NCBI RefSeq assembly: GCF_000299395.1
Contig: NC_018656.1
Coordinates: forward strand, 620,001 to 684,000
Reading direction: 5' to 3'
DNA from: Candidatus Nitrosopumilus sediminis
Lineage (GTDB): Archaea > Thermoproteota > Nitrososphaeria > Nitrososphaerales > Nitrosopumilaceae
DNA length: 64,000 nucleotides
Of the stretch, positions 24,336-40,045 are shown piece by piece (position 1 is the stretch's first letter; each line of letters starts with the position of its first letter). The notes beneath the pieces are model-generated. The model did not search any database and had not been told where the DNA came from. It worked only from the letters and a program-made list of their open reading frames with translations. The translations under genes and the position numbers were made by a program.

Positions 24336-25112
24336 CTAAAATGAATCTTGTAATGAGGTATTTTGAAAAGACTGTATGACTTTGTTAAAAACAACTAGCG
24401 ATACGATGGCTCCAATGCCTGCAAGTACTAACATTGTAATAGTGAAATCACTGCCTGTGAAATTCAATATGCTAGAATATGGATCAAAGTAAGGTGTCCC
24501 AGAACCTGCACCAGGATTTGAAACTACAATGTCTACCTTTGTTTTTGCCATGTACAGTGATTCATCTACAGAATTTGCAATACCTGTTCCTGATAATTTT
24601 ATTGGCAAGCTAAAGTCTGTATACCAACTTTTTAACGGTTCAAACAATCTGCTTTCAGCAGACATTATTACTAGTGATAATGCAGTAATTGCAGATACTA
24701 TTGTCATTCCAAAGAATTTGGAAATGGAATGGAATGAACGTGCCAATGATTTGCTCTGCTTTGTTTTCTCAGTAATTTTTGATGGAGTGAGAACTATTGC
24801 CATCTTTGATGTTTTGTAATAATTCATGTCTCTTGCCTTGGAGTTTTTTACAGTCTTTGATACCTGTATTAGTTCAATCTTTTGCATTTTATCCAAGTAG
24901 TGCTTTACAAGTTGCAACGACATGTTTGTTTTTTGTGCAATTTCATTTGCAGTCATCTCGTTGTAAAATAATAAATTCAAAATCTCTATGCTTGATTTAT
25001 TAGAAATAACTTTGGCTAAAATTTTCATCTTGTCATCATCTAAAGAGAAAATGTTTACAGCGTTGTCTGTTTTGCATTTTTCATCATTCATAGGTGATAT
25101 ACTATATGGCAA
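24336..25112 (-). CDS. Membrane-anchored HTH regulator (ArsR-like) with GSGTP motif
   Basis: A 258-residue protein. Residues 22-105 are an ArsR-like winged helix (IEILNLLFYNEMTANEIAQKTNMSLQLVKHYLDKMQKIELIQVSK, here split as strands and recognition helix near 57-78). It continues into a helix (about 133-152) and a second near the C-terminus (226-246), leaving an outside loop of about 70 residues that contains NPGAGSGTPYFD. The divergent neighbour at 25184 carries NPGTGSGTPMF. The layout is that of a one-component membrane sensor. The regulator at 36531 has the same architecture. Confidence 0.7.
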   Translation of the reverse strand: MPYSISPMNDEKCKTDNAVNIFSLDDDKMKILAKVISNKSSIEILNLLFYNEMTANEIAQKTNMSLQLVKHYLDKMQKIELIQVSKTVKNSKARDMNYYKTSKMAIVLTPSKITEKTKQSKSLARSFHSISKFFGMTIVSAITALSLVIMSAESRLFEPLKSWYTDFSLPIKLSGTGIANSVDESLYMAKTKVDIVVSNPGAGSGTPYFDPYSSILNFTGSDFTITMLVLAGIGAIVSLVVFNKVIQSFQNTSLQDSF

Positions 25113-25132
25113 TATGATATGTAAGTATTAGT

Positions 25133-25165
25133 GAAACAATAATTTCATCAAACGCTTTATGCAAA
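25133..25165 (+). promoter_or_regulatory. Divergent control region between regulator and partner
   Basis: TCATCAAACGCTTTATGCA ahead of the 25184 gene resembles ATCAAACGTTATAAAC at 37433 ahead of the second partner gene, and AACGCTTTATGAAC upstream of the 35212 gene on the minus strand. ATCAAACG would be the BRE and the following A/T stretch the TATA element. Sharing between both regulator-partner pairs suggests a common control. Confidence 0.45.
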
Positions 25166-25183
25166 ATTCACGTAATTAACTCA

Positions 25184-25498
25184 ATGACTGGAAAAAAAAC
25201 AATCATCATGACAGGAGTAATGTTAAGCCTTTTGATATTGCCTTCTGTTAGCAGCCTTGCATTTGCACAATATCTGCCAACTTCCGGTACAACTGGACTT
25301 GATGACATTCTAGACCTCCAACAAGAGAGAGTTAGAATTGCACAAGAAAATCCAGGTACGGGCTCTGGAACTCCCATGTTTGCATTAGAGGGGGTTTTTG
25401 GAGCACTTGTTTTATCTACCGGGATATTTGGTGGAATCGCTTCGGCCTTTTTTGTAATGGGACGCAAGGGAAAATATGCCGCCATGGGAAGAGGATAA
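25184..25498 (+). CDS. Small membrane protein, divergent partner of the 24336 regulator
   Basis: A 104-residue protein: an N-terminal helix or signal peptide (about 6-28; ends SSLAFAQ), an outside stretch with LQQERVRIAQENPGTGSGTPMF, and a C-terminal helix (GVFGALVLSTGIFGGIASAFFVMG) followed by a basic tail. NPGTGSGTP closely matches NPGAGSGTP in the outside loop of the regulator encoded divergently 71 bases away. Probably the sensor's ligand, decoy or inhibitor partner; this is inferred from the shared motif only. Confidence 0.6.
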   Translation: MTGKKTIIMTGVMLSLLILPSVSSLAFAQYLPTSGTTGLDDILDLQQERVRIAQENPGTGSGTPMFALEGVFGALVLSTGIFGGIASAFFVMGRKGKYAAMGRG

Positions 25499-25542
25499 AC
25501 TCTCTTTTCCCTTTTTATCTAATTTTCTAATTTTTTATCGAG

Positions 25543-25577
25543 TAAAAGATTCGAAGTACTTATGAATATCATAATTT
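25543..25577 (+). promoter_or_regulatory. Promoter repeat P1, copy 4
   Basis: TAAAAGATTCGAAGTACTTA then TGAATATCATAATTT is almost identical to copy 1 over about 34 bases. The TTG start at 25590 is 37 bases after the G of GAAGTACTT. Confidence 0.6.
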
Positions 25578-25589
25578 CAGATTGATTGT

Positions 25590-26234
25590 TTGAATTCCCA
25601 TATTCTTTTAGCAATTTCTGTCATTATAGTGGGGATAATTTTAATTTCAATAAATTACCCTTCTATAGACAATTTTTACAAATATTCCAAACCTTTACTA
25701 AAAATGGAATTTGAAACTATTGATCAATTATGTGATTTAGACTGCAAAATAGATTATCAATCCCAAGGGTACAATTGTCATGATATTTCTCATAACACTT
25801 TTTTTTGTTTTCCTCCACTAAACTACAATAAAATTCAAAAACAAAATGACTATTGGGATCAATTAATTCCATACAATTATGGCTATCTTGATTTACTTTA
25901 TGATGATAAAGAGATCTCTTTAGGATTGATAAAAAAAATCAACATTATTGATGAGAAAAACGTTGAGGTGACATTTTCAACTGATGAGCATTCCAAGTTT
26001 ATGCACGCTGAAATCTCTGATTTTGATTATTTTGAAAACAAAATTATCAGCATAGGTGATACATTCATTCCCAAATGCCACAATCAATTCATTCATGTCT
26101 ACAAATTACATGATATTGCAATTCATGAAGATGTGTCATATGCGATATTTATCTATAGGATTGGAACAAGCGATATACAACAATGCGTGTTTCCACAAAC
26201 CTTAGAACATAATTTTGGAATAAAATTTGATTAG
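25590..26234 (+). CDS. Membrane-anchored exported protein, paralogue of the gene at 15631
   Basis: A 214-residue protein starting at TTG, with helix SHILLAISVIIVGIILISI and an outside domain with six Cys, two in CDLDCKIDYQ. Shares with the 15631 protein the helix, the NFY-YS-PL segment, the central INIIDEKNVEVTFS (there KLIDENTALFTF) and the ending -HNFG. Unlike its paralogue it is the first gene of its array and uses the P1 promoter rather than a junction ATG. Stop is TAG in GAT-TAG-AAA-ATG, the frame-0 junction stop. Confidence 0.6.
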   Translation: MNSHILLAISVIIVGIILISINYPSIDNFYKYSKPLLKMEFETIDQLCDLDCKIDYQSQGYNCHDISHNTFFCFPPLNYNKIQKQNDYWDQLIPYNYGYLDLLYDDKEISLGLIKKINIIDEKNVEVTFSTDEHSKFMHAEISDFDYFENKIISIGDTFIPKCHNQFIHVYKLHDIAIHEDVSYAIFIYRIGTSDIQQCVFPQTLEHNFGIKFD

Positions 26235-26237
26235 AAA

Positions 26238-26468
26238 ATGAAGACTAGGCTTTTGATAGTGATTGTAATTGCATTAATGGCCATAGGGTTTTCACCTATT
26301 CTCTATTCATCATTTGTGTTGTTCCCTCCGACAGAACCGCCAATAATGCGACCAATAGAGGGAATTGACTATGTTTTGTTTATGTATAAACAGACATTTT
26401 TGTTTGGTGGAATAATTGGTATCTTTGTAACTCTTGCAGGAATTATTATTTGGAGAAAAAGAAAATGA
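26238..26468 (+). CDS. Small two-helix membrane protein
   Basis: A 76-residue protein: MKTRLLIVIVIALMAIGFSPILYSS, a short outside Pro-rich loop, a helix (FGGIIGIFVTLAGIIIW) and RKRK*. The stop AAA-TGA overlaps the next ATG. Same cassette type as 16315 and 26465. No family. Confidence 0.55.
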   Translation: MKTRLLIVIVIALMAIGFSPILYSSFVLFPPTEPPIMRPIEGIDYVLFMYKQTFLFGGIIGIFVTLAGIIIWRKRK

Positions 26469-26725
26469 AGACTAGATACATAGCCATTGGCGCAACAATA
26501 TTTCTTTTGATGGGAATTACAATAACAATACTTAGCTTTGAGACAATTCCTTCTGAACCTCCAAAAAATCTACCCAAAGGAATGATTCCCATAACTCCAG
26601 AAGTTGGAAAGACATCAATTCCTACAGGACCCTATATCATTTATGCCAGCATTTTTGTTTTGATTGGAACAGGAATTTACTCTTTATCTGGTTTTTTAAA
26701 AGGAACATTGGAAAATGATTTCTGA
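26465..26725 (+). CDS. Small two-helix membrane protein
   Basis: An 86-residue protein from the junction ATG (peptide MKTRYIAIGATIFLLMGITI); the frame upstream to 26450 lies in the preceding gene. Two helices flank a Pro-rich outside loop (IPSEPPKNLPKG), and the tail is GFLKGTLENDF. It overlaps the protease gene by 11 bases, but without the junction repeat. No family. Confidence 0.5.
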   Translation: MKTRYIAIGATIFLLMGITITILSFETIPSEPPKNLPKGMIPITPEVGKTSIPTGPYIIYASIFVLIGTGIYSLSGFLKGTLENDF

Positions 26726-27383
26726 AATTCATGATATTAATCCCAAGACATGGCTAAAGCCATTTCAAAGAAACGATGTTTTCTATCTCCTAAAAATGGG
26801 GCTGTTCTATCATGGATTGAGCCTGATTTTGATGCATGCTGGGTCTAGTCTTGCAACAAGTGTTATTTCAGACTATGAAATTCCACAATTCCCAGTGTCG
26901 GTCTCACTTGCATTGAGCTCAGGATTGCTAGAAGAATCAGTATTTTTTGGAATCCCGTATTTTTTGACTGGCAATCCTCTTGTACTGCTTGGAACCGGAA
27001 TAGTTTGGTCTGCTGCACATCTATTTAGCTTTGGTGTCTTTTCAGTAGAAACTTTGGCATATGGCGGATTCTTACTTACAATTCCGCACATCTTTTTTAG
27101 CATAAGAACATGGATTAGTAAAAAAGGTTGGTTTGTAATTCTGTTTCATTCTACATGGAACTTTGTAATTTTAATTTCTTACTGCATGTTAGGTTGGCGA
27201 CAATGTAGTGTCTTTAATGACATGTCTGATATTCTAAATGTAGTGATGGCAATCTCTGTTGGAATGATTCTGTATCTTGCATATCTGAACAAGAAAAAGC
27301 ATGCCAACAGATTTCTGTATCTGGTACCTACTGTCTTGATAATATTTGCAATGTTTCTTTCATATTCAAATGACCTCATTTGA
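26715..27383 (+). CDS. CPBP-family intramembrane metalloprotease
   Basis: A 222-residue polytopic protein with about six helices. CPBP/Abi landmarks are LEESVFFGIP near residues 71-80 (the EExxxR motif with Phe in place of Arg), WSAAHLFSFG with His near residue 100, and FHSTWNF near 142-148 (the HxxxN motif). The family comprises CAAX and Rce1-like proteases that cut inside or at the edge of the membrane. Replacement of the Arg may alter or weaken activity. As the last gene of an array of small membrane proteins, it may process them; this is inference. Confidence 0.7.
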   Translation: MISEIHDINPKTWLKPFQRNDVFYLLKMGLFYHGLSLILMHAGSSLATSVISDYEIPQFPVSVSLALSSGLLEESVFFGIPYFLTGNPLVLLGTGIVWSAAHLFSFGVFSVETLAYGGFLLTIPHIFFSIRTWISKKGWFVILFHSTWNFVILISYCMLGWRQCSVFNDMSDILNVVMAISVGMILYLAYLNKKKHANRFLYLVPTVLIIFAMFLSYSNDLI

Positions 27384-27993
27384 GATTTTTCTTAAACTCT
27401 TTGTATGATTTTATCATCGAATCCATGTATTCCTCTAGACTTTTTTGCATCCCTGGAAGCTCACCGTATAATTCTGTCCAGAGTTTTTGATATTTGGGAT
27501 TTGATGATAACATCATTGAACTAAAAAATACCTGCATGTCCCGAGATATTGAGTCTTCACCATTTTTTATTTTTTCAATCTGCTCTTCTACTGCACTAAA
27601 ATAATTCATGTATTTTCTAAACACCTGCTTTGATTTTTTTAGATTATCCTTTGATACGTCAAATCCCTCTCCCTCCAGATCCTTTTGGAATTCTTTGTTT
27701 TCAATCCAAATGAGGTAATAGTTTTCAATCTTCTCTGCAAATTCCATGTCTTGCTTGTAAAAACTAACAATCCCATACATTGTAGGCCCGTACTCAATTT
27801 TTTTCCTACCTTTGTCTTTTGACTTGTAAACTCGAATCTTGCCTGATTTGCTTAACTGCTTAAAATGCCTGTGAATTGTGCCTATCGGAATTCTTGTCTT
27901 GCTGTTTGCAGAGTAGAGTGTAAGGGGGCCATGGTCCATTATTGCCCTGAATATGTCCATTGAGGTACGTGCTGATGTGGATATATCCGCCAT
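27376..27993 (-). CDS. Winged-helix transcriptional regulator
   Basis: A 205-residue soluble protein. The N-terminus (about 10-70) is a winged helix: FRAIMDHGPLTLYSANSKT, TIHRHFKQLSKSGKIRVYKSKDKG. The rest is helical, likely a dimerisation domain. The ATG at 27993 gives MADISTSARTS; an alternative ATG at 27960 (MDIFRAIMDH) would leave the GGATATATCC palindrome upstream as an operator. Divergent from the exported protein at 28046, with an 11-bp perfect inverted repeat beside that gene's ATG; this arrangement suggests control of both. Convergent overlap of eight bases with the protease. Confidence 0.65.
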   Translation of the reverse strand: MADISTSARTSMDIFRAIMDHGPLTLYSANSKTRIPIGTIHRHFKQLSKSGKIRVYKSKDKGRKKIEYGPTMYGIVSFYKQDMEFAEKIENYYLIWIENKEFQKDLEGEGFDVSKDNLKKSKQVFRKYMNYFSAVEEQIEKIKNGEDSISRDMQVFFSSMMLSSNPKYQKLWTELYGELPGMQKSLEEYMDSMIKSYKEFKKNLK

Positions 27994-28016
27994 ACTTTAT
28001 GTATTTGATAATAATG

Positions 28017-28042
28017 AATATATCCATTTCTATGGATATATT
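28017..28042. promoter_or_regulatory. Operator-like perfect inverted repeat
   Basis: AATATATCCAT-TTCT-ATGGATATATT has two perfect 11-base arms, 28017-28027 and 28032-28042, ending four bases before the ATG at 28046. Related GGATATATCC occurs at 27978-27987 and GAATATGTCCAT at 27950. The set fits binding sites of the divergent winged-helix regulator. Confidence 0.6.
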
Positions 28043-28045
28043 AGT

Positions 28046-29185
28046 ATGAGATTCCTTCTGGTATTGATTTTAGTAACTGGCCTTGTACCCTATGCGTCAG
28101 CTGTACAACTTGATGCGGCAATTCTTTCAGGCGAGAATCCTACAGAACCATCGTTTCAATTTTTGAGAATAGTTTACATTGAATATCCAAACGGCGGTGA
28201 TCTTTCTGAATCATTGCGCAAAACAAACCAAACTCTTTCTTTTGTTGCAGATTCTGACACTCCCGGCATGGATGAACTTGTGGTACAACTAAACAAAAAT
28301 CTAAAAGAAATTTCAAGTGATGCAGTTGTAACTGATGCCAAGATAATTTACCATGTAATATTGAAAGGAAATCAAAACAGTGCAGTAATAGAATACAAGA
28401 TGCAACTAATTCCAACAATTACAAACCATGTCCTAACAACATCATTTGAAAAGACTGTAATTGATGCAAACTGGAGGGGCATATCAATCGACGAACCGGT
28501 AATTCTTCAAACTATCTACGGATCATTTGATGTGAATAATCCAAAATCTGCACTTGATGTAATGATTCCGGATCTTTCTGAAAAACTACAAGACGTATCA
28601 ATTATGCAGTTGCCATTAATCGATGCAAGTGGAATATTGGATCTTCCATTATACAAATGGCATTCAATGTTTGATAACACTGCGATAATTCCAGGTGCAG
28701 TAGAGTACAAATACATTGGAGAAAATGTCATCACTCATTATTCTATGGGGGAATGCAGCATTGATGTCGGTCCATGTGGTGACAGACAGTGGGTTCAGGA
28801 AATAGATCTTGATAAAAAATACACCATACGAGTGATTGAATCAAGTGATGATGCATCCATTTCATTTGAAGGATATGTGGATACGACTAGAATTGATGGA
28901 TCTGAGGTGTTCTTAACCAGCTTGAAAACCCAAGTCAGTGCAGAACCTGACACTGATGAGTTTCCTGCAACTGTGATGTATGGGATGGCAGGATTTGCAG
29001 CAATTGGTGGAGCTGTGATGTTTGTAGTAAGCAATCGAAAACTAAAGAGAGACAAGAATGAGGGTCAGACAGGCGTGGATCCTGCTCATTTGAAGGCTTA
29101 TGAAACTAGTAGTTCTTCAGGAGGATACAAAACAAACAGAGGCGAATCCCACTTGATTTTAAATGAATCAAAGACCGCAATCTAA
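28046..29185 (+). CDS. Exported protein with C-terminal membrane anchor
   Basis: A 379-residue protein. The signal peptide (MRFLLVLILVTGLVPYASA) decides the start; the in-frame region upstream to 27953 crosses the operator and the divergent gene. The outside domain (20-320) is mixed alpha/beta with repeats of a segment like VVTDAKIIYHVILKGNQNSAVIEYKMQLIP. A helix (FPATVMYGMAGFAAIGGAVMFVV) and a charged cytoplasmic tail follow. Probably regulated by the divergent winged-helix protein. It is followed by an orphan junction copy, as if another cassette once stood next. Confidence 0.6.
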   Translation: MRFLLVLILVTGLVPYASAVQLDAAILSGENPTEPSFQFLRIVYIEYPNGGDLSESLRKTNQTLSFVADSDTPGMDELVVQLNKNLKEISSDAVVTDAKIIYHVILKGNQNSAVIEYKMQLIPTITNHVLTTSFEKTVIDANWRGISIDEPVILQTIYGSFDVNNPKSALDVMIPDLSEKLQDVSIMQLPLIDASGILDLPLYKWHSMFDNTAIIPGAVEYKYIGENVITHYSMGECSIDVGPCGDRQWVQEIDLDKKYTIRVIESSDDASISFEGYVDTTRIDGSEVFLTSLKTQVSAEPDTDEFPATVMYGMAGFAAIGGAVMFVVSNRKLKRDKNEGQTGVDPAHLKAYETSSSSGGYKTNRGESHLILNESKTAI

Positions 29186-29187
29186 AT

Positions 29188-29204
29188 GTAAAAAATGAAA
29201 ACTA
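29188..29204 (+). repeat. Orphan junction copy after the 28046 gene
   Basis: GTAAAAAATGAAAACTAG carries the core without the tail; the next bases belong to the end of the minus-strand glycosyltransferase. The last three bases (CTA on the plus strand) form the stop codon of that minus-strand gene, so the repeat serves as a terminator for both strands. Confidence 0.5.
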
Positions 29205-30356
29205 GCTCCACACTTTTTCTTTGAATGTCCATTTCTTGTTTAACACAAAATTACTAAACGCTGCGATACCGACTGCCAACACTAATGCGATTGGATATGT
29301 GACGTTGTTCATATCTACTAAATAATACACCATTCCAAGCTGGACTAGTGCTCCAATTGAGCTAAACCCTGCAAACTTTCCGTACTGCACAAGAGTTCTT
29401 CTTACTGCAAAATCTTTGTCCTCAAATGTCCAGTACTTGTTTAGAATGAAATTACTAGTGATTGAAAACATGATTCCCATTACAGTTGCATGCAGATACC
29501 ACATGTCTGCACTGAATGAAAATAACACCGATGCAAGATAATTTACTGCTAAACCTGATGCGCCGACTGTAAAGAATCGTGCTGCCTTTGAAAGGAATCT
29601 GACAGATGTGCGTTTCTCGTCTTTTCTTACCTTGCGTCCATACTTGTACAGATTCCAGACTGATTTGCAGTAATCAAAAATTGTTTCTGCACCAAGCTTG
29701 CTTTCCCCTTCTTTCCTGTCTGTGAATGTATACGGAACTTCCTGAATTTTGACTCCTTTGGTCTTTACAAGAATTTCAAGGAGCACCTTGTAGCCTATTG
29801 CATCAAACTTTAATCCCTTTATGATATTTTTTTTAAACAAGAAAAATCCAGACATTGGATCTTGTGATGAAATTCCAAGACCTTTTTTTGCAATTGTTGT
29901 TGCAACTTTACTCATTAGTTTTCTCTTAAAGGGCCACCCTTGGATTGAGCCTCCCTTGACATATCTTGAAGCAATCACAATATCGCAGCTGGTCTTCCTC
30001 AATGTCTCAATCATTTTTGGTATGATGTGTGGGGGATGGGAGAAATCACTATCCATTACCACTATTGTATTTCCAGATGCCTGCTGTATTCCATTAAGTA
30101 TTGCAGAGCTCAGACCGTCTTTTGCTTTTCTCTTGATTACGTTAATTGTATGGCCTGTTTTTTCCCTGATTGATGAAAAATACTCCTCTGCCATCTTTGC
30201 TGTATGATCAGGTGAGTTGTCATCTACTACAATGGTTTCAGCCATAATCTCCTTGGGAATTGATTTTTGAATCCCTTCTAGAATTCTACAAATATTTTCG
30301 GACTCATTATATGTTGGAACGATTATGGATATTTCAGCTGATTTCAATATCCTCAA
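29202..30356 (-). CDS. Dolichyl-phosphate mannose synthase with GtrA domain
   Basis: A 384-residue fusion. The N-terminal GT2 domain (1-235) has ISIIVPTYNESENI, VVDDNSPDHTA, MDSDFSHPP (the DxD-like site) and ASRYVKGGSIQGWP, all typical of DPM1/polyprenol-phosphate mannosyltransferases. The C-terminal part (about 255-384) has four helices of a GtrA-like flippase domain (FLSKAARFFTVGASGLAVNYL). It would attach mannose to a lipid carrier and flip it across the membrane. It is preceded by the mannosyltransferase at 30398, which would use the lipid-linked sugar. Confidence 0.85.
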   Translation of the reverse strand: MRILKSAEISIIVPTYNESENICRILEGIQKSIPKEIMAETIVVDDNSPDHTAKMAEEYFSSIREKTGHTINVIKRKAKDGLSSAILNGIQQASGNTIVVMDSDFSHPPHIIPKMIETLRKTSCDIVIASRYVKGGSIQGWPFKRKLMSKVATTIAKKGLGISSQDPMSGFFLFKKNIIKGLKFDAIGYKVLLEILVKTKGVKIQEVPYTFTDRKEGESKLGAETIFDYCKSVWNLYKYGRKVRKDEKRTSVRFLSKAARFFTVGASGLAVNYLASVLFSFSADMWYLHATVMGIMFSITSNFILNKYWTFEDKDFAVRRTLVQYGKFAGFSSIGALVQLGMVYYLVDMNNVTYPIALVLAVGIAAFSNFVLNKKWTFKEKVWS

Positions 30357-30397
30357 AATCTGTGCTTTGGATTAAAATGTTTAAGGTGCAATTTGCT

Positions 30398-31843
30398 TCA
30401 CTTGTCCCATTGACCTGTCCTTACATCAATTGAGAATCCTTCCTGATTTATTCTCATGTTGGTATATGGGTAGATTCGGGTATCAAAGTCCTTTACTTTG
30501 CCATTGAAGAACTGTATTGACTTTGTGTTGTTGTATGCTTGTACTAGTTTGTCTCCTCTGCTCTGATCTAGCATAAAATGAGCATCTGCAATTACCGTAA
30601 TTTTTTTGGTCTCAACTGGACCAAATAAAATCATTGCATAGTCTTTTGGTACATTATCTATGTCAAAAACATCATACAAAATCCAAGTATATACGGGACT
30701 GGCAAGAATTGTACTTTGTTTGTTTTGATTTTCTAAAACAAATGAGAGGGCCTCAAACTGGTTATATGACACGTCATTTGTTATGATCAGAACGGTGCTT
30801 GAAAATCCAAAGACCAGAATTGCCCCTATTATTCCATAATGGATTGTCTTTGATTGTAGATATTTTACCTTCTTTGGCATGTCAAGTAGCCAAATGCTTG
30901 CAGCGATGCACAAGATAGGAATGACTGGAATCCAATGGAAATACTGTTTGAATCCAATCAATGACAGAAATGCAATAAACGGCACAAACCAAAACATGAC
31001 AAACTTATTTTTTGTTATTGCAGAATAGACAATCCCTGCAAATCCAATCACGAACAGCACTGGATCAATTAGAATAAAATATCCTATAATCTCTAAAATG
31101 CTGTTACTTCTCTGGCTCTGCCATAGTACGTCCTTTACCCACAAGTCAAACTGATCAAGCATTATGCTGTTTGCAGGCCACAGCATTGGTATCAGCAATA
31201 CCGGAATTATCCAAATTAACATGTCTGAAAGTTTTCCCCTCTTTTGGAAAATCAGCCAGATCACTAGAGGAATGAACACAAATGCTGGAACCTTTGTAAA
31301 AATTGCAAGTCCTAACAAAATTCCTGATACTGGTGCAAGCCATGTATTTCCCTGTGATTTTGCAAAATGTATTGCAAGTAAAATTGATGAAAGTAAAAAC
31401 GGCAAGAGAATTGCATCAAGTAAAATCCTATCAAATATCCATGTGTATGGCATTACTGCAAACAGAGAAGATGATAGTAATGCGACATCATTACCAAACT
31501 TTACTTTGGCAATTTCATAGATTAAAAATGTGCTAACAATTGCAACAATCCCCATGAATATTCTTGGGATGAGATACAGGCTTTGAAGCGAATCAGGATC
31601 AGTTGATATGTTGTCTGGAGGATAGTTTGTAATCTGTAAAACTCCTGCAAGAACTATCTGTCCGAAATATGGGTGATCATACAGATAACTCTCCTGTGGG
31701 TTTCCAGTATCAATTGTATTCATTGCCCTTCGCATGTAGATTCCTTCATCAAAGAAAATGTCTGGAAATCCAACTGGATTTACTAGGTGAATGAACGTTG
31801 CAAGCAGCAAAGGAATTAGAATAAAATATTTTTTCTCCATCAT
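30398..31843 (-). CDS. Dolichyl-phosphate-mannose-protein mannosyltransferase (PMT/ArnT-like)
   Basis: A 481-residue polytopic membrane protein with about eleven helices and a short outside C-terminal domain. FPDIFFDEGIYMRRAMN near residues 27-43 is the Asp-Glu catalytic loop of GT-C enzymes (PMT, ArnT), followed by SYLYDHPYFGQIVLAG. It would move a lipid-linked sugar to protein or lipid on the outer face. It is 41 bases upstream of the DPM/GtrA gene on the same strand. The pair lies inside the exported-protein island, so island proteins rich in Asn-Xaa-Ser/Thr or Ser/Thr may be substrates. Confidence 0.8.
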   Translation of the reverse strand: MMEKKYFILIPLLLATFIHLVNPVGFPDIFFDEGIYMRRAMNTIDTGNPQESYLYDHPYFGQIVLAGVLQITNYPPDNISTDPDSLQSLYLIPRIFMGIVAIVSTFLIYEIAKVKFGNDVALLSSSLFAVMPYTWIFDRILLDAILLPFLLSSILLAIHFAKSQGNTWLAPVSGILLGLAIFTKVPAFVFIPLVIWLIFQKRGKLSDMLIWIIPVLLIPMLWPANSIMLDQFDLWVKDVLWQSQRSNSILEIIGYFILIDPVLFVIGFAGIVYSAITKNKFVMFWFVPFIAFLSLIGFKQYFHWIPVIPILCIAASIWLLDMPKKVKYLQSKTIHYGIIGAILVFGFSSTVLIITNDVSYNQFEALSFVLENQNKQSTILASPVYTWILYDVFDIDNVPKDYAMILFGPVETKKITVIADAHFMLDQSRGDKLVQAYNNTKSIQFFNGKVKDFDTRIYPYTNMRINQEGFSIDVRTGQWDK

Positions 31844-32032
31844 TTTAGATTATCATTCGCATTGTCTTATTTTAAGAAAGCAAACTATCTTATTGATTTA
31901 GTCATGTGGTTAACTGATCTGACAAAACCCGACAGAGGATTCAATGTGCAAGCCTGTTAAGATTAGCAAATATTTTATTAAAAATAATTGACATTAACTA
32001 GTCTCAAAAGAACACCTACAAAGGAGTAAGTC

Positions 32033-32071
32033 TTATCGGATTGTTATCAAAAGTCTAGTTTTCATTTTCTA
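32033..32071 (-). repeat. Orphan junction copy ending array 32062-35212
   Basis: Read on the minus strand: TTAGAAAATGAAAACTAGAC then TTTTGATAACAATC, giving MKTRLLITIR then TAA. Twenty-five or more of the bases match the active consensus including the tail. No gene follows for 190 bases. It is the best-preserved orphan. Confidence 0.7.
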
Positions 32072-32235
32072 ATACTGAAACTGAAAAATGGGCCATAAAA
32101 TGAAATTAGCTTGTATTCTCTATAGTTTTTTTTGTATTCATCATTAATTTTGAGATAATATGGCTCGAGTTTTTCTTCTACCACAATTTTAAAAATACTG
32201 AATCCTGAATTATTTTGGAAAATTTTCCAATTCAT
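32062..32235 (-). CDS. Small 57-residue protein, remnant or short cassette
   Basis: This ORF (MNWKIFQNNSGFSIFKIVVE, then EKLEPYYLKINDEYKKNYRE) ends FSIRK* at a junction repeat. Its ATG overlaps the stop of the 32232 ORF by four bases (ATGA). It is too short for most ORF lists. Together with the next ORF upstream it may be one gene split by a frameshift, but both ends obey the island's overlap rules. No family. Confidence 0.4.
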   Translation of the reverse strand: MNWKIFQNNSGFSIFKIVVEEKLEPYYLKINDEYKKNYREYKLISFYGPFFSFSIRK

Positions 32236-32315
32236 AAAGATAGTTGATCTGCATTCTTAATAATTTTTAAAAAATAAAAAAACAATCCTGCTGATGGCAC
32301 TCTTCCTGTTTTCAT
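32232..32315 (-). CDS. Very short cassette peptide (27 aa) with MKTG start
   Basis: From the junction-like AAAATGAAAACAGG, this frame reads MKTGRVPSAGLFFYFLKIIK and seven further residues, and overlaps the next ATG by four bases. The helix-like FFYFL suggests a membrane peptide. The short length suggests a decaying cassette rather than a working gene. Confidence 0.3.
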   Translation of the reverse strand: MKTGRVPSAGLFFYFLKIIKNADQLSL

Positions 32316-32323
32316 TTTAACTA

Positions 32324-32818
32324 TTATAACAAACCATCCGATTCCAAATCTGACAAATACAAAAAGTCTGTATGGTCTGCTGCCTTGCCATATTGAACAG
32401 AAATAGAATAGATTCCATTTTGTTCCCACAATGATCCTCCAATGGGCAAAGACTCTTCAAATGTATTATCATCCGATATTGCCACCTGTAAAATAGATAC
32501 AACCTCCAATAACGGATTGTATATTGTAATTGTCAGATTGGTGTTAGACCCTATATTATCTACATATCCAGATATGATTACGACATCATTTGTGTGGTAT
32601 TCTTGCTTGTCTGTCTCTACATGAACAGCATATACATCATCTGAATGTACATAATGTTGATTTTGGTAAACGGTAAGACAATTCCAAAAATTTGGATTTC
32701 TAGGAGTTTCAGCAAACACTGGTATTGTTCCACATTGGTACATGAACACCTGATAAGCACCAAAAAATAAGATAGTCGACAGACTCACAGTAAGAAATAT
32801 TTTGTATTTAGTTCTCAT
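32324..32818 (-). CDS. Single-pass exported beta-domain protein
   Basis: A 164-residue protein using the junction ATG (MRTKYKIFLTVSLSTILFFGAY); the upstream five codons belong to the previous gene. The outside part contains a MG2-like or Ig-like domain: VHVETDKQEYHTNDVVIISGYVDN, then NLTITIYNPLLEVVSILQVAISDDNTFEESLPIGG and YSISVQYG. This A2M-MG2-like fold is common in archaeal surface proteins. The stop TAA lies before a degenerate junction. Confidence 0.6.
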   Translation of the reverse strand: MRTKYKIFLTVSLSTILFFGAYQVFMYQCGTIPVFAETPRNPNFWNCLTVYQNQHYVHSDDVYAVHVETDKQEYHTNDVVIISGYVDNIGSNTNLTITIYNPLLEVVSILQVAISDDNTFEESLPIGGSLWEQNGIYSISVQYGKAADHTDFLYLSDLESDGLL

Positions 32819-33417
32819 TTTCTTTTTCTCCAAAGAAAAAATACAGACATCCCTACAATTGGCAAAGCAACTCCAAGGGGTAAGAAGATATTGCGGACAA
32901 GTTTCCCAAACTCACATTCTTCTACACTATACAGTCCTGGACCTCTACAATCATGTGATTGTGAAGATTTGATCTCGTGCGCATCACTAAAAGCATGAGT
33001 TGAACCAATAGTTTCAAGAATTTTAACATCGTCATTCCTGCCATCCAAAAACCATGAGCCATCACATGTAGTTGTATGTAGACTGGCATCAACTATCTTT
33101 GCATAAATTAGGTATTCTTTATCCTTGATCAGATTTATTCCACATGCAGTACTGACCTTTGCAGTAGATACAGGAACGTGTCCGTTTTTAATCAAGGGAA
33201 ATGAATCTGCTCCTTTCCATACTTTTTGAACGCTAAATCCTGCTGCAATAGAATCATTTGAAAAATCCCAAGGAACCTCATACACAGTTCCAGAAAAAAC
33301 TACGTCTGCCTGATTAATTCTTTGTTCAACGGTCAAGTCATCACATAAACATGCAAATGCAGTCCCAGAAAATCCAAGTGCCGCAATTACAATTATTATC
33401 AAAAGTCTAGTCTTCAT
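32815..33417 (-). CDS. TIMP/netrin (NTR)-like exported protein with C-terminal anchor
   Basis: A 200-residue protein: signal peptide MKTRLLIIIVIAALGFSGTAFA followed directly by CLCDDLTVEQRINQADVVFSGTV, the hallmark of NTR/TIMP OB-fold domains (Cys at the mature N-terminus), and later STACGINLIKDKEYLIYA and TTTCDGSW. A C-terminal helix ends LWRKRK*. The start is the junction ATG, with an 11-base overlap on the preceding gene's ENED* stop. TIMP-like domains may inhibit metalloproteases; this is family knowledge and not tested here. Confidence 0.65.
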   Translation of the reverse strand: MKTRLLIIIVIAALGFSGTAFACLCDDLTVEQRINQADVVFSGTVYEVPWDFSNDSIAAGFSVQKVWKGADSFPLIKNGHVPVSTAKVSTACGINLIKDKEYLIYAKIVDASLHTTTCDGSWFLDGRNDDVKILETIGSTHAFSDAHEIKSSQSHDCRGPGLYSVEECEFGKLVRNIFLPLGVALPIVGMSVFFLWRKRK

Positions 33418-35212
33418 TTTCCACTCTACAATAGTAATAATCTAATGGTAATCGCTCATATCCAGAATCTCCAACTATCAAATACCTTCCTTCCTTTTCA
33501 CATGTTGGAAAATCTGCAAAGTCTGATTCATCCCAAATTCTTAGAACATCTCTAGGTGGGTAAACGGGCTCATAATATGGACAAGAGTATACAATGTGAT
33601 GTTTGTAGATTAGATTATCCGTTGTGTAATCATTACCAATTTCTTGCTTCATATGATATACTTCTAATGTTGGGGAAGTACAGCCATTTCCCCATCCAGA
33701 TTCAACTACTCTAAATGCTGGTGAAGAACCAAGTTCTACGTTTCTTGTCAAGTCTTCAAGTTTGATGTTAATCCATGTTGGAGGGGTTGTACTTTGAAAT
33801 TTTATTTCGTTGACATCAGATATTTTGTAATGTGAAATCTCAAAACACCTATCCAGAGCTATACCACTGGTATTTTCTCTGTCTAAAGTTGCAGTTTTTA
33901 TTTCGCAAAAATTAATAATTTTACCATCAACCATTGAGAAATACTTTGTCATATCTTTTGGAAATTCATCAGAAGGTGTAAGTACGTAAATGCATTCATC
34001 GTTATAGATTACTTGGTTTGGAAAACAATGAACTTCAGTAAGCGTGTAGGTAGGTTCAGGTTCTGGAGGCGGAGTACTTGGTTCAGAATCTAAACAAGCA
34101 AAATTTTGCAATATTGTTGGAGGAAAAATATCTCCATTGGATACTTCTATTCTATAATATCCAGTTTTATCACAAACAAATTCCTCAAAGTCATTACCCA
34201 TAGAATATGAATTAAAAGTACCATATGTACCATCATGATCAATGCAAAGTTTGTCTAAACTATTTTCAAGCACAGATTGATAATTGATGTCAATTATTCT
34301 TAGTTGAGGATTCGAGCAATCAGATGATATTCCCCACTCTAACAATTCAAACTGAACTTTATCGCCAACATTGTAATGATATTGGTGTGGTGTAATTGCA
34401 TATTCCAGGTATTGTTCTCCTAAATGATACTGTTTGGAATATTCCTCAACTGCCTTTCTTTTCTCATCAAGAGTATCAACAGGAGTACTATTGTATGAAA
34501 AAGTTCCCTCTAACATCATGGACATTATGTTTCTTCCCGTCCACTCCATCTCCTTTTCTGGGAAAGGGCTTGCAGGTAACATCAAACGTAGCTTTGCCCA
34601 TCCTCTACTGAGAAGTTCAGATTCTGTGTCTGCAAAAACACATGCAGGTTTGTAATGAGTGTTCCAGACAGGAACTTTATCTTTGTCACAAATGATATGA
34701 CCCAGTTTAATTCCAAGTTTCATTTGTTTATGTGGAGACGGCATATCAAATGGAACTGGATAAACGGTACGATCAAGTGTTCCTCCTCCATGATTTTGTC
34801 TGACTACAAATTCTTGTTTAATGAATGCATCAACAAATTCTACTTCAAGATAATATTTTCCAGATTCATTGATAATTATAGGCTTATTTTTATCATATCC
34901 AATTTTTGTTTGCACTGGACTTGAAACAATAGCAGGATCACAAGATATGTCTGCACCCCAGCCCAAAATAAAATTGCCGTCATCATCAGTTATTTTTGCA
35001 TCATAAGAATTGCAATTTCTATCGCTTGGTTTTTCTATAATGAATTGTATTGGTTCTCCAATGATATTTACATATGAGAAATCAATGAATTGGGATTGTT
35101 CTTCTAGTTGCATGGGGGAATTATCACATGGCAATGAATCACATAATCCAAATACACTGGGTGCAAATATTACAGAGCCTGCAAAAATCAGTAAAATAAT
35201 GAAAATTTTCAT
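33407..35212 (-). CDS. Large exported protein with LDRTVYPVPF motif
   Basis: A 601-residue protein: signal peptide ending PSVFG, an Ig-like domain (about 40-150) ending EFVVRQNHGGGTLDRTVYPVPF, then SPHKQMKLGIKLGHIICDKDKVP and PACVFADTESELLSRGWAKL, the C...ACV...RGW module, and further Ig-like domains (STPPPEPEP linker near 395). The same order of motifs occurs in the 38143 protein. It has no C-terminal helix; it ends VENED*, the frame-2 stop of the junction. It is first of its array, with its own promoter at about 35230. Confidence 0.65.
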   Translation of the reverse strand: MKIFIILLIFAGSVIFAPSVFGLCDSLPCDNSPMQLEEQSQFIDFSYVNIIGEPIQFIIEKPSDRNCNSYDAKITDDDGNFILGWGADISCDPAIVSSPVQTKIGYDKNKPIIINESGKYYLEVEFVDAFIKQEFVVRQNHGGGTLDRTVYPVPFDMPSPHKQMKLGIKLGHIICDKDKVPVWNTHYKPACVFADTESELLSRGWAKLRLMLPASPFPEKEMEWTGRNIMSMMLEGTFSYNSTPVDTLDEKRKAVEEYSKQYHLGEQYLEYAITPHQYHYNVGDKVQFELLEWGISSDCSNPQLRIIDINYQSVLENSLDKLCIDHDGTYGTFNSYSMGNDFEEFVCDKTGYYRIEVSNGDIFPPTILQNFACLDSEPSTPPPEPEPTYTLTEVHCFPNQVIYNDECIYVLTPSDEFPKDMTKYFSMVDGKIINFCEIKTATLDRENTSGIALDRCFEISHYKISDVNEIKFQSTTPPTWINIKLEDLTRNVELGSSPAFRVVESGWGNGCTSPTLEVYHMKQEIGNDYTTDNLIYKHHIVYSCPYYEPVYPPRDVLRIWDESDFADFPTCEKEGRYLIVGDSGYERLPLDYYYCRVENED

Positions 35213-35281
35213 AATATGATTAGAAAAACAATACGAAGTTCATAAAGCGTTCTAAGATTTTGTGATGGGCCATGATTATTT

Positions 35282-36337
35282 TTATCCAAACCTGCTATCA
35301 AAAAGAGAATTCATTCTGGCAAGACATGTTTTTTGCAAATCTCCATCAAGTTTCTGGCAAAACTGGTCTGCTTTTTCATCAGATACAAATCTGGTAAGTG
35401 ACTCAATTGCACCAATCACGCATTGTTCCTGATATTTTGGAGGAGTGGAATTACACATCAAGATTGTCTTGTCTACGACATCAAAATTGTCTTTTGTCAG
35501 ATGTGCTGCAACCCCTTTATAGCATATTGGAATGTATTTCGGGTCAGGTATTCCAGAACAGAAGGAATATGCAGTCTGCAAATCATAGTTTGCATGAACC
35601 AAAAAATAGTTTGCCTGATATCTGTAACATAAAGTGGCAGCTTCAGAATTTTTTGTGCCATTAATTTGGTTACATGGATAATACATGTCAGATTTGTCAA
35701 AATCGCCACCTCGATTTTCGGCATACTCGCCCATGTTTTGCATGAACAGACCTCCATTGCACATGTAGATTTCATTCCAGTTATCAAACTCATTGCACCT
35801 CTCAAGTGCTTGCGTTGTGTTATAGTTGTAAATTTTGATAAGACTATGGCCCATGCCATGAACGCATTCACTTTTTGCATTATCCCCCAATGCATCACTG
35901 ACAATTTCACATGACTTCTTAATGTCTACAGATTCTATAGGGGTGCCATCAAGCATGTTTTCAATTTGAATTGTATTTTCTAGTAACCCGTGCATAATTC
36001 CTGCAGCACATCTATGATCAGATAGTTCAGATGCCTTTGACAAATCTCTATTAACATATCCGTATAGAAATTCTCCTATATGATGAGCCGATGGATGACA
36101 GTAAAAGTCTGCATCGACATACAAGTCTATCAGTTCATCTAGAGTCAGAAAAACTGTTTGTGTAGAATTGTTACGAGATAATTCATAGAGCATGTCAATG
36201 GTGCATTCATCGTCATCATAGCATGAATCAAAGATGGAATCAGCATACGATACTGGCGTAGGCTGTATGCTAATTACAAACAGCGTAAAAATTCCAGATA
36301 CTGCAACTAGCATGATTGTTAAAAATTCATTTTTCAT
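35282..36337 (-). CDS. Secreted Cys/His-rich protein
   Basis: A 351-residue protein: signal peptide or anchor (MKNEFLTIMLVAVSGIFTLFVIS), then a helical domain with repeated histidine and cysteine motifs: CHPSAHHIGEFLYG, CAAGIMHGLLEN, CVHGMGHSLIKIY, CNGGLFMQNMGEY, CYRYQANYF, CSGIPDPKYIPICYKG. These tetratricopeptide-like Cys-bounded helical repeats resemble an unnamed family in Thaumarchaeota. The His-x-x-Gly-x-Gly-His pattern suggests metal or heme binding. It ends an operon with the HTH regulator at 36531 and the zinc ribbon at 36334, by ATGA overlaps. Confidence 0.6.
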   Translation of the reverse strand: MKNEFLTIMLVAVSGIFTLFVISIQPTPVSYADSIFDSCYDDDECTIDMLYELSRNNSTQTVFLTLDELIDLYVDADFYCHPSAHHIGEFLYGYVNRDLSKASELSDHRCAAGIMHGLLENTIQIENMLDGTPIESVDIKKSCEIVSDALGDNAKSECVHGMGHSLIKIYNYNTTQALERCNEFDNWNEIYMCNGGLFMQNMGEYAENRGGDFDKSDMYYPCNQINGTKNSEAATLCYRYQANYFLVHANYDLQTAYSFCSGIPDPKYIPICYKGVAAHLTKDNFDVVDKTILMCNSTPPKYQEQCVIGAIESLTRFVSDEKADQFCQKLDGDLQKTCLARMNSLFDSRFG

Positions 36338-36534
36338 ATTCGTGCTATCTCTGATTCTAATCGTCTTCTGTTGGTACGTGTAGAGTATCTAACACGGGTA
36401 TTGCAGCAGGGGCAACGCAGGAATCTTTTTTTAAAGTAATAATCACAATTTCTGCAGTAACACCCACCTGTATGATATGCAACATGTCTTGTTGAAGATT
36501 CTGATTGTGCACATCTACCTTTACAGAATGTCAT
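36334..36534 (-). CDS. Small zinc-ribbon protein
   Basis: A 66-residue cytoplasmic protein with CYCRNCDYYFKKRFLRCPCC near the centre: two CxxC-type pairs 12 residues apart plus an extra Cys in each, and an Arg-rich C-terminus (TRTNRRRLESEIARI). Start and stop both overlap neighbouring genes by four bases, so it is translationally coupled between the membrane regulator and the Cys/His-rich protein. Probable nucleic-acid or regulator cofactor. Confidence 0.65.
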   Translation of the reverse strand: MTFCKGRCAQSESSTRHVAYHTGGCYCRNCDYYFKKRFLRCPCCNTRVRYSTRTNRRRLESEIARI

Positions 36535-37394
36535 GAATTTTTACCTCGCAATTTTTTTTGTAGTTTTCTTTTATTGTACCATCGTGAAAGTATTCTTTCT
36601 AAAATTATTCCACCTGCAACTACTGCTACTGGAACTGCAATTGAGATTATGAGTTCTAGTGTAGGATCTCCACTAGTTGCATTTGTTCCATCAAATGGTT
36701 GTGGATATACGGTTCTGTCAAGACTTACAGATCCTGTGTTTGCCCTGTCTTCGCTTAATTGAAATGCAAATTCATCAATTCCAGAACTGCTTGGTTCTGG
36801 TTCAGGATGAGGTTCTGGCTCGTGTATTGGCTCTAATTCTGGGCTTGAAGATACCGTCATATCCGCATCAGAATTTGTAATCTTCTCTGATGCCGAACTC
36901 CACTCATTAGCAACTATCTTGGAACTTTTTTCTTCAATGCTTTCTGACTGTTCCAATACTGGCATCAACTGATTATTGGGTTTAACAGTAAGCCATGAAA
37001 CAATCCCTGCCATTCCTATTGCTGCAAACTTGGAGAATTTCTTTAATGAATTAACTAGAGAACTAGTTGACTTTTCTGATGTTATTAGAAATGATTGGTT
37101 TGTGGAAACATAGTATTTCATTTCCTGACCCTTTGCAGAAATTCCTGTCTTTGATACTTTGATCATCCCTGCGGCCTGCATTCTTTTTAGATGGTGTATT
37201 GTCAATGTCAGCGACATGTTGTTTTCTTGTGCAATTTCATTTGCAGTCATTTCATTGCCGTTTGAGACTAGTTTCAAAATTTTTCTGCTAGAATCATTGC
37301 TAAATATCTCGCCAATCAGCTTGATCTTGTCATCTTCTGTTGAGATGATTTCGATGTCTTCATCCTCGTCGCTCACGATACATCGTGCTATCAT
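36531..37394 (-). CDS. Membrane-anchored HTH regulator (ArsR-like) with LDRTVYPQPF motif
   Basis: A 287-residue protein with the same build as the 24336 regulator: acidic N-terminus, winged helix (about 30-100; SRKILKLVSNGNEMTANEIA, NNMSLTLTIHHLKRMQAAGM), a helix near 127-142, an outside loop with a Pro/Glu repeat (HEPEPHPEPEPSSS), the motif SVSLDRTVYPQPFDGTN, and a C-terminal helix (LELIISIAVPVAVVAGGIIL). Its divergent neighbour has DESVYPVPSAY. First gene of the operon 36531-36334-35282. Confidence 0.7.
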   Translation of the reverse strand: MIARCIVSDEDEDIEIISTEDDKIKLIGEIFSNDSSRKILKLVSNGNEMTANEIAQENNMSLTLTIHHLKRMQAAGMIKVSKTGISAKGQEMKYYVSTNQSFLITSEKSTSSLVNSLKKFSKFAAIGMAGIVSWLTVKPNNQLMPVLEQSESIEEKSSKIVANEWSSASEKITNSDADMTVSSSPELEPIHEPEPHPEPEPSSSGIDEFAFQLSEDRANTGSVSLDRTVYPQPFDGTNATSGDPTLELIISIAVPVAVVAGGIILERILSRWYNKRKLQKKLRGKNS

Positions 37395-37431
37395 ATTTTA
37401 TGAATTAAATGTTCGGTAAAATTTAGATTTC

Positions 37432-37448
37432 ATCAAACGTTATAAACA
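37432..37448 (+). promoter_or_regulatory. Promoter of the 37501 gene
   Basis: ATCAAACGTTATAAAC matches the BRE-TATA block at 25148 ahead of the other partner gene. A 13-codon frame from the ATG at 37472 (MKSILFGGHNWKD) ends at 37513 and overlaps the TTG start of the partner, which could be a leader peptide. Confidence 0.5.
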
Positions 37449-37500
37449 AAAAATCATTCCCAACATTACTAATGAAAAGTATTTTGTTTGGGGGGCATAA

Positions 37501-38067
37501 TTGGAAAGACTAGTAAAAATTGGAATTGTCATAGCAATTGCAATAGGGTTGATTTTCTTTTCATTGTTTTTAATAACGATTATTCCTCACATTGTTGCAA
37601 ACACACAGAGAGATTGGGGCGATATTTTAACGCCAAAACTCACAGATGATGATGCGATGGAAATTTTTAGTAGCGAACAGGTCTATTCAAAATTCAAAGA
37701 AAAATATCCTGATGCCAGTGAGGTTCTTAAAAATAATAACAACAGAAACGCGCGTATGGAATTGACTGCGATGAATTTTACAACTTTTCATTATATCACA
37801 TTGAATATGGATTATGACATACGTGATCAGATGCTGGACTATTCAATCAGGTGCAATCTTTCAGGCGATGAACGACTTCCAAGTGCTAGGGATACATTGG
37901 CAATTCTTTATCTGCAATACACTCAATGCTTGCAAATTCCAAAAAAATCCTTTGTAAATGGGAATGAGGATGTAGTTTATCATGACTATGATGAGAGTGT
38001 TTATCCTGTACCGTCAGCATATCAATTGGCAGTAGAGCGTGAAAGCGCAGGACTACGTGCAAATTGA
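37501..38067 (+). CDS. Membrane protein, divergent partner of the 36531 regulator
   Basis: A 188-residue protein from TTG: one N-terminal helix (MERLVKIGIVIAIAIGLIFF) and an outside helical domain (about 35-165) with two Cys. Near the C-terminus is YDESVYPVPSAYQLAVERES, which shares VYPVP with the loop of the divergent regulator (VYPQP) and with the exported proteins at 33407 and 38143. No family. The promoter is 107 bases from the regulator start. Confidence 0.6.
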   Translation: MERLVKIGIVIAIAIGLIFFSLFLITIIPHIVANTQRDWGDILTPKLTDDDAMEIFSSEQVYSKFKEKYPDASEVLKNNNNRNARMELTAMNFTTFHYITLNMDYDIRDQMLDYSIRCNLSGDERLPSARDTLAILYLQYTQCLQIPKKSFVNGNEDVVYHDYDESVYPVPSAYQLAVERESAGLRAN

Positions 38068-38106: not shown

Positions 38107-38145
38107 AGAACTTTTCAATGATGTGCTAGGGTTTCATACAGTATG
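38107..38145 (+). promoter_or_regulatory. Promoter/leader repeat P2, copy 2
   Basis: GAACTTTTCAATGATGTGCT, then GGGTTTCATACAGTATGAAG, matches copy 1 at 23203 with about 85 percent identity by eye. The MKYF ATG is 33 bases after the A of ACTTTTC. Confidence 0.55.
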
Positions 38146-39357: not shown

Positions 39358-40044
39358 ATGAAAACTAGACTTTTGATAATTATTCTAGTAGTTTCAATAA
39401 TGATTCCAACAAACTCTTTTGCAGAGCCTCCACCTAATTATCAAGGAAGTTTTGAATATTCGAAATGGGTTGTAATTGGAAACATTACTACAGTTGAAAT
39501 TTTATCTGAACCTGATACAAATCGTGCAGGATTTGCATTGTACACATTAGATATTGAAAAATATCTAAAAAACCCTATTGACAATTCTACCATTACAATT
39601 CTTGGGCATTATAATATTGAGGAAGTGGGAAGAACTACTGCCTCTAAATTATATGAAATTGATCAAAGGGTTTTGTTTTACATTCAGGAATTGAAGAATG
39701 TTCCTGGATATGATTACATAGTTAGAGATAGGACATCTGGAGTCATTACCGAAAAACTTTGTCCTGAAAATACTTCTTATCAAACAGGCCTTTGTTTTTA
39801 CAACGATGATCCAAATAGGGCACATCCGCCTTGCATCAATCGAACAATGGAAGATTGTAAGCAACATAGAGTGACATTTTATGATGAATCCGAAGAGATA
39901 GTATGCGGTGCAGGCACAGAAAATATTGAGGGAATATGTCAAGTCATACAAACAGACAGAATGAAAACTATGGGCGATGATGCGCCTTTCTTTGGCATCT
40001 TTGCATACTTGGATAATTTTATCTCATGGATATTTGGGAACTAA
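39358..40044 (+). CDS. Exported OB-fold-like protein with EGF-like Cys loop
   Basis: A 228-residue protein: signal peptide MKTRLLIIILVVSIMIPTNSFA, then a beta-rich domain (FEYSKWVVIGNITTVEIL, FALYTLDIEKYLKN, QRVLFYIQ) like the NTR/TIMP protein at 32815 in length and order. A Cys-rich end (TGLCFYNDDP, PPCINRTMEDC, VCGAGTENIEGICQ) and a C-terminal hydrophobic segment (FFGIFAYLDNFISWIFG) follow. Start is the junction ATG with a fully conserved tail. Stop TAA lies one base before the next ATG. Confidence 0.6.
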   Translation: MKTRLLIIILVVSIMIPTNSFAEPPPNYQGSFEYSKWVVIGNITTVEILSEPDTNRAGFALYTLDIEKYLKNPIDNSTITILGHYNIEEVGRTTASKLYEIDQRVLFYIQELKNVPGYDYIVRDRTSGVITEKLCPENTSYQTGLCFYNDDPNRAHPPCINRTMEDCKQHRVTFYDESEEIVCGAGTENIEGICQVIQTDRMKTMGDDAPFFGIFAYLDNFISWIFGN

Positions 40045-40045
40045 A

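Follow-up and report, generated by a model that had tools for sequence, protein, structure and literature searches.

Two membrane-anchored regulators, here called R1 and R2, are encoded in a 64,000-nucleotide stretch of the Candidatus Nitrosopumilus sediminis genome (NC_018656.1; this whole stretch, positions 620001-684000 of a single-contig 1.69-Mb genome labelled G000, is referred to as the window), and the loop that each is predicted to expose outside the cell resembles a segment of one of the cell's own surface proteins. In R1 this segment matches AmoZ of ammonia monooxygenase (AMO), in R2 it matches the surface-layer (S-layer) protein, and in relatives of both it can match AmoA. With this mimicry go an architecture of helix-turn-helix (HTH) domain, transmembrane (TM) helix, loop and TM helix, a linkage of AmoZ-type loops to genes for AmoZ paralogues, and an operator at each regulator/partner pair. 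R1 and R2 are tentatively read as one-component membrane-anchored regulators whose sensor was copied from AmoZ or the S-layer protein (AmoA in relatives) and which would control the neighbouring surface-protein gene, an assignment that we place just short of an even chance. The features at issue are as follows:

24336..25112, minus strand: R1, a membrane-anchored ArsR-like winged HTH (wHTH) regulator of 258 amino acids (Pfam HTH_5, AlphaFold model).
24483..24572, minus strand: AmoZ-like module in the R1 outside loop, SVDESLYMAKTKVDIVVSNPGAGSGTPYFD.
25131..25151, no strand assigned: inverted-repeat operator GTGAAACAATAATTTCATCAA between R1 and P1.
25184..25498, plus strand: P1, by homology an AmoZ paralogue of 104 amino acids, with a signal-type helix, a helix, GSGTP, a TM helix and a basic tail.
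25280..25381, plus strand: AmoZ module of P1 common to R1, TSGTTGLDDILDLQQERVRIAQENPGTGSGTPMF.
36531..37394, minus strand: R2, a membrane-anchored wHTH regulator of 287 amino acids and paralogue of R1 (Pfam HTH_5).
36693..36746, minus strand: RANTGSVSLDRTVYPQPF, the part of the R2 outside loop that copies the 1,700-amino-acid S-layer protein of this genome, with 17/18 residues identical.
37416..37436, no strand assigned: inverted-repeat operator GTAAAATTTAGATTTCATCAA between R2 and P2.
37501..38067, plus strand: P2, a membrane-anchored exported protein of 188 amino acids with DESVYPVP close to its C terminus (37990-38013).
402306-403034 of the genome: R3, a third paralogue, facing a 738-amino-acid beta-propeller protein.

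The original prediction, made from the letters of the window, had given both regulators the same order of HTH, helix, outside loop and helix, and this was borne out. R1 and R2 scored 23.6 and 29.0 bits against the ArsR-like Pfam profile HTH_5 (cut-off 22), R2 was 42% identical to R1 across residues 11-132, and the AlphaFold model of R1 showed wHTH, TM helix, outside helix and TM helix in turn (wHTH at approximately residues 27-101, TM helix at 121-152, outside loop with a helix at 182-198, TM helix at 220-256). The wHTH was modelled confidently (pLDDT ~90), with the archaeal ArsR-like 2cwe/1uly as the closest PDB folds; confidence was low for everything outside the wHTH, and the GSGTP stretch between the outside helix and the second TM helix was disordered. 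The metal-sensing ArsR/SmtB model NCBIfam NF033788 was passed by neither regulator (R1 23.8 and R2 28.8 bits against a cut-off of 55). The four short strings on which the prediction had been built, NPGAGSGTP in R1, NPGTGSGTP in P1, LDRTVYPQP in R2 and SVYPVP in P2, were all found where it had placed them.

The genome holds two AmoZ-family genes, P1 and a homologue in the amo cluster to which P1 is 51% identical and which sits 3.5 kb from amoA. Gene order at that cluster is amoA, amoX, amoC, amoB, two genes, a gene for an 89-amino-acid protein, a gene for a 110-amino-acid protein, and uS15. The published order ends in amoY (Nmar_1506) and amoZ (Nmar_1507), amoZ lying immediately upstream of amoY, and the published lineage marks of AmoZ are two cysteines in Nitrososphaera and a C-terminal zinc ribbon in Nitrosocosmicus (PMC10030591); homologues in other lineages fit both marks. 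Since the gene order and these marks match the publication, the 110-amino-acid protein is, as judged by homology and these published features, AmoZ, P1 is its paralogue, and R1 carries the AmoZ ectodomain module as its GSGTP loop. P1 passed the AmoZ-family homology test over its full length, including the GSGTP-TM-GKYAAMGRG tail, and lies outside the amo cluster, ~740 kb from amoA. Aligned with AmoZ (TLEEALEIQARRIAAAEANPSSGSGTPYLD), the R1 module scored 66, which was reached by 0/200 shuffles (best of 70 background proteins, 35), and the 34-residue stretch common to R1 and P1 scored 68 versus 23.7 +/- 3.9 in shuffled loops (p ~1/300).

Linkage between AmoZ-type loops and AmoZ-paralogue genes was seen across genomes: such a gene lay within 600 bp of 27/29 AmoZ-type loops versus 0/100 other loops, counts that are not phylogenetically independent. 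The two loops lacking it were at L075, where the contig ends, and at L073 in genus g12, where no paralogue turned up downstream and the motif has degenerated to SPAAVSGSP. Further named loci with AmoZ-type loops added 13 with a paralogue, 1 on a cut contig and 0 exceptions (L255 and L280 included). The arrangement in genus g12 has a propeller opposite the regulator and the AmoZ paralogue downstream instead of divergent, the loop keeping the AmoZ module. In G145 three consecutive genes, for a regulator (broken), an AmoZ paralogue and a vWA protein, all encode the AmoZ ectodomain, and the regulator copy is nearest to its own genome's AmoZ (40/46 versus 30-32/44).

The vWA protein of this row, at L203 (G145:C1:1439000-1449000), is exported, is 603 amino acids long, and has the AmoZ ectodomain complete in its linker. 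An AmoZ-like helix (LEEALEIQQRRIESGQAIPSTGFGTS) occurs in the linkers of beta-propellers at L201:4176-6512 (G031) and G071:C3:197601, where an adjacent family regulator was not noted.

The segment copied in R2 corresponds to residues 1009-1033 of the N. maritimus S-layer protein, and the structure of the Nitrosopumilus S-layer protein has been solved (PDB 8c8k; PMC11153153). The motif LDRxVYP was found at five places only in G000, namely in R2, twice in the S-layer protein, and in two exported proteins of the window:

33407..35212, minus strand: exported WING-49 protein beyond R2 (NCBIfam NF058652), NHGGGTLDRTVYPVPF, with its LDRTVYP codons at 34758-34777.
38143..39348, plus strand: exported WING-49 protein, second gene downstream of R2's operator (NCBIfam NF058652), NHVGGSLDRTVYPVPW, with its LDRTVYP codons at 38542-38561.

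Both carry LDRTVYPVP, in keeping with the predicted recurrence of VYPVP in large exported proteins, and they scored 78 (33407) and 62 (38143) against the same S-layer segment. These two matches and that of R2 to the S-layer protein were significant; the octamer D..VYP.P common to R2 and P2 was rejected as stand-alone evidence (p = 0.24). At both loci of the window, then, a regulator and its divergent operon do carry the same outside segment, as had been proposed, but neither motif belongs to its pair alone: that of R1 is copied from AmoZ and that of R2 from the S-layer protein, while AmoA is copied elsewhere in the family. S-layer-type regulators had epitope-bearing products in the divergent operon in the window (P2 and the 38143 protein), at L078 (a P2-class partner with P2's motif), at L081 and at L114, where two S-layer segments occur in the regulator and in its propeller alike; no epitope-bearing product was found within 6 kb of those at L082, L091 and L221. 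At L081 an AmoA segment and an S-layer segment follow one another in the propeller linker.

Other family loops copy AmoA. The loop at L135 carries AFKYPRPTLPPYMTPIEPQ, 19/19 identical to its own genome's AmoA, and versions of this epitope were also found in L134, L113, L131 and L333 (L333 being assigned to the regulator family by its similarity to L134 and L135). The Pfam archaeal AmoA profile scored L135 (E 2.9e-11) and L134 (E 3.6e-8) above cut-off. The epitope is the outside loop between TM5 and TM6 as read from the AmoA sequence, and thus lies outside between two TM helices in AmoA and regulator alike. When searched for by DNA pattern in 300 genomes it was present as a rule in one copy per genome, and the extra copies that were examined lay in the regulators L134, L135 and L333, in the partner beta-propeller of L081, and in one true second AmoA. 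L135 differs from its own AmoA at 11 third codon positions despite the 19/19 residues, and this keeping of residues while codons differ points to selection acting on the protein sequence of the copied segments. Recent recombination or assembly error was rejected as a source of the copies, given that their codons have diverged and that they are present in complete genomes.

A family profile built from R1-R3 found the regulators in 91/250 genomes of the order and 16/59 genera, and ~140 loci were fetched; relatives recognised by sequence were Nitrosopumilus, Nitrosarchaeum, Nitrosotalea, Nitrosotenuis and other Nitrosopumilaceae. Divergent partners were beta-propellers (34), SIMPL-type proteins of ~260 amino acids (27), P1-like proteins of ~105 amino acids (22) and small classes. 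The expectation that divergent partners would always share a motif with their regulator did not hold: by ungapped BLOSUM62 alignment against shuffled loops, sharing was found throughout only among the AmoZ paralogues (22/22, no partner of another class scoring as high), strongly in 2/32 propellers, and in 0/27 of the SIMPL/DUF541 class. Loops were also compared with the AMO subunits and the S-layer protein of G000, seven proteins in all, and 38/129 (~30%) beat all 200 of their shuffles (AmoZ 28, AmoA 4, S-layer 6), a significance that, with segments this short, hinges on how the shuffles are modelled; these 38 scored 56-134, with the best of 70 background proteins at ~34-49. AmoB, AmoC, AmoX and AmoY were matched by none of the 129 loops. 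On a tree of the HTH part, AmoA-type loops fell in two separate clades and S-layer-type loops in two, many forks being weakly supported.

Three further observations concern the family at large. At loci L087-L128 (Nitrosarchaeum, Nitrosotenuis and others) regulators stand opposite SIMPL/DUF541-like proteins, and an EMAxKSxP-like stretch, which may copy some other protein, is common among their loops. Loci L215-L235 (genera g8 and g5) hold a divergent regulator subfamily with PEPS-rich loops, opposite small proteins of ~95 or 111 amino acids. Regulator genes with in-frame stops or split genes were seen in G095, G089, G135, G247, G176 and G174, so that loci decay frequently.

A promoter block common to both loci of the window had been predicted as the bare word ATCAAACG, which occurs 4 times in the window versus 1.96 expected and is not significant; it stands as one half of a conserved inverted repeat, which supersedes it. 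The right half of the R1/P1 operator is ATCAAACG (25147-25154), next to a TATA-like CTTTATGC at 25155-25162, and in the R2/P2 operator ATCAAACG lies at 37432-37439 with a TATA-like TTATAAAC after it. The form GTRAAA-N5-ATTTCAYYAA or a close variant was found in intergenic regions of all partner classes, abutting TATA-like boxes on the partner-gene side and conserved in orthologues. Exact matches in the 1.69-Mb genome numbered 3, at R1/P1, R2/P2 and R3/P3, with 0 for the reversed control pattern. Over 133 loci, operator density was 3.25/kb upstream of family regulators versus 0.031/kb elsewhere (~100x), and 81/135 regulators had an operator with at most one mismatch. The position and conservation of the inverted repeat suggest that it is bound by the family HTH. 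The amo and S-layer promoters held no exact operator match, so direct control of an amo or S-layer gene by these regulators seems unlikely; with exact matches in the genome only at regulator/partner pairs and the operator dense upstream of the regulators, regulation is probably local and includes the regulator's own gene.

A possible mechanism is that the loop sits at, or competes for, the contact site that the corresponding segment of AmoA, AmoZ or the S-layer protein normally uses. An under-built, damaged or saturated complex would then leave contact sites vacant or a binding factor unbound, this would bring about a change in the membrane regulator, and its HTH would alter transcription of the regulator's own gene and of the accessory gene nearby (for the AmoZ paralogue or for exported proteins with the epitope). 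Since several partners carry the same copied segment, the gene so switched would feed back on that contact site. That regulators carrying a fragment of AMO or the S-layer survey the integrity or occupancy of that complex by means of this self-copy, and act via a private operator, is a tentative proposal that we rate somewhat below even. It retains from the original prediction the sensing of a surface protein's state, which is still the best general idea. Should the proposal hold, gene control would be linked to AMO or the S-layer by regulators bearing 19 AmoA residues, an AmoZ ectodomain or an S-layer strand, the copied segments would be marked as likely contact sites of AMO or the S-layer, and AmoZ paralogues and beta-propeller or WING-49 surface proteins would acquire a regulatory context. 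To our knowledge, how AMO and the S-layer are sensed and adjusted in ammonia-oxidising archaea is essentially unknown, and genetic tools are lacking. A self-copied protein segment serving as the signal input of a prokaryotic one-component regulator was not found described in the literature.

Several results weigh against this proposal. In about 70% of loops, those of the beta-propeller, SIMPL and g8 classes, no copied segment can be recognised, and nothing elsewhere in the G000 genome matches the R3 loop, so that for R3 the idea of a copied own protein was dropped; the family can therefore function without mimicry. The tree test of the AmoZ loops found few independent changes (2 on supported branches), too few for significance. 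The AmoZ-type loops may alternatively derive from an ancient fusion with an AmoZ domain, the similarity running into the second TM helix. Lastly, copied segments occur also in linkers of exported proteins that are not regulators (L081, L114, L201 and L203), which fits a docking tag equally.

The last point makes an address tag the strongest rival. The copied segment would dock its carrier onto AMO or the S-layer, where the regulator would be parked along with several exported proteins, the sensing falling to another component. Such a role would suit segments placed in anchor-to-globular-domain linkers of beta-propellers (L081, L114 and G031) and of the G145 vWA protein, just ahead of WING-49 domains, and, as AmoA and S-layer copies in tandem, in one L081 linker. 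A structural AmoA segment would, however, normally be occupied within the complex, and a tag leaves unexplained the association of AmoZ-type loops with a neighbouring AmoZ-paralogue gene; we consider this rival unlikely. Slightly less probable is the original suggestion of a common protease or chaperone site, by which a cut in the loop would start regulated proteolysis and free the HTH, and a cut in the partner would shed its domain. The segments are exposed, proline-rich and in linkers, and a 1,265-amino-acid subtilase with its own GVYPVP is encoded just downstream of the S-layer gene, but a single protease motif is a poor match for three unrelated sequences that stand in for one another, two of them side by side at L081, a constitutive cut in the AmoA TM5-TM6 loop would break AMO, and no protease gene was seen travelling with the regulators.

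An integrated decoy, in which the loop would bait an outside antagonist of AMO or the S-layer (a virus, toxin or predator protease) and the partners would be decoys or repair proteins, seems improbable. The copied parts do belong to abundant surface proteins and are invariant in them, the G145 regulator best matches its own AmoZ, and broken regulator genes occur; against this, no antagonist is known and no link to defence genes was seen. Idle domain shuffling, with AmoZ-type loops as an old HTH-AmoZ fusion (L079 is 60% identical to AmoZ over 60 residues, second TM helix included) and AmoA or S-layer stretches as passively kept linker insertions, is similarly doubtful: passive linkers should drift, yet here the amino acids stay the same as codons diverge, copies have originated repeatedly, and L073, where no AmoZ paralogue was found downstream, has a decayed motif.

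Transmembrane activators of the bacterial ToxR/CadC type combine a DNA-binding domain inside and a sensor outside in one protein, as in R1 and R2; unlike R1 and R2 they have an HTH of another family, a single TM helix and a folded sensor domain, which is not known to copy another protein of the cell. Integrated decoys of plant nucleotide-binding leucine-rich repeat (NLR) proteins, which are eukaryotic intracellular immune receptors, give the sensor a copy of the guarded protein and resemble R1 and R2 in their working only, by analogy. ArnR and ArnR1 of Sulfolobus acidocaldarius are membrane-bound one-component regulators with an N-terminal HTH and two TM helices that act at inverted repeats at surface-structure promoters (PMC6396743), and R1 and R2 have the same N-terminal HTH and two TM helices. 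They differ in that the ArnR/ArnR1 sensor, with a putative HAMP, precedes the TM helices, whereas R1 and R2 have a variable loop between them; the family operator GTRAAA-N5-ATTTCAYYAA does not correspond to the ArnR box TCGAC-N5-GTCGA; and a copied enzyme or S-layer segment is not described for ArnR/ArnR1 (PMC6396743). Relative to AmoZ (PMC10030591), P1 has the ectodomain, TM helix and tail and R1 the ectodomain in its loop; the differences are P1's place away from the amo cluster and the fusion of the module to an HTH in R1. R2 has 17 of 18 residues of one segment of the Nitrosopumilus S-layer protein (PMC11153153, PDB 8c8k) and, unlike it, contains no immunoglobulin-like domain, only the short stretch.

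Among the window proteins, WING-49 (NF058652) was found in four (21762-23189, 33407-35212, 38143-39348 and 39977-41329), with LDRTVYPVP just ahead of it in two. The 33407 and 38143 products scored 50.9 and 63.1 bits (cut-off 22), and the VYPVP motif ends ~5 residues before the domain and so falls outside the NF058652 model. No literature on WING-49 or on membrane regulators in ammonia-oxidising archaea turned up. P1 was considered as a PEFG-CTERM/archaeosortase substrate for its motif-TM-basic end, which was rejected as NCBIfam matched P1 to nothing, and a PDB match of P1 was dismissed as chance. The subtilase with GVYPVP (L010:2036-5833, G000:C1 ~1422035-1425832) has a C-terminal TM helix, is encoded on the same strand as the S-layer gene and two genes further downstream, and is a candidate processing protease. 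Between the R1 and R2 loci, a glycosyltransferase family 2 protein with a GtrA-like tail (29202-30356) and a dolichyl-phosphate mannosyltransferase-like protein (30398-31843) were recognised by eye; these are possible surface glycosylation genes.

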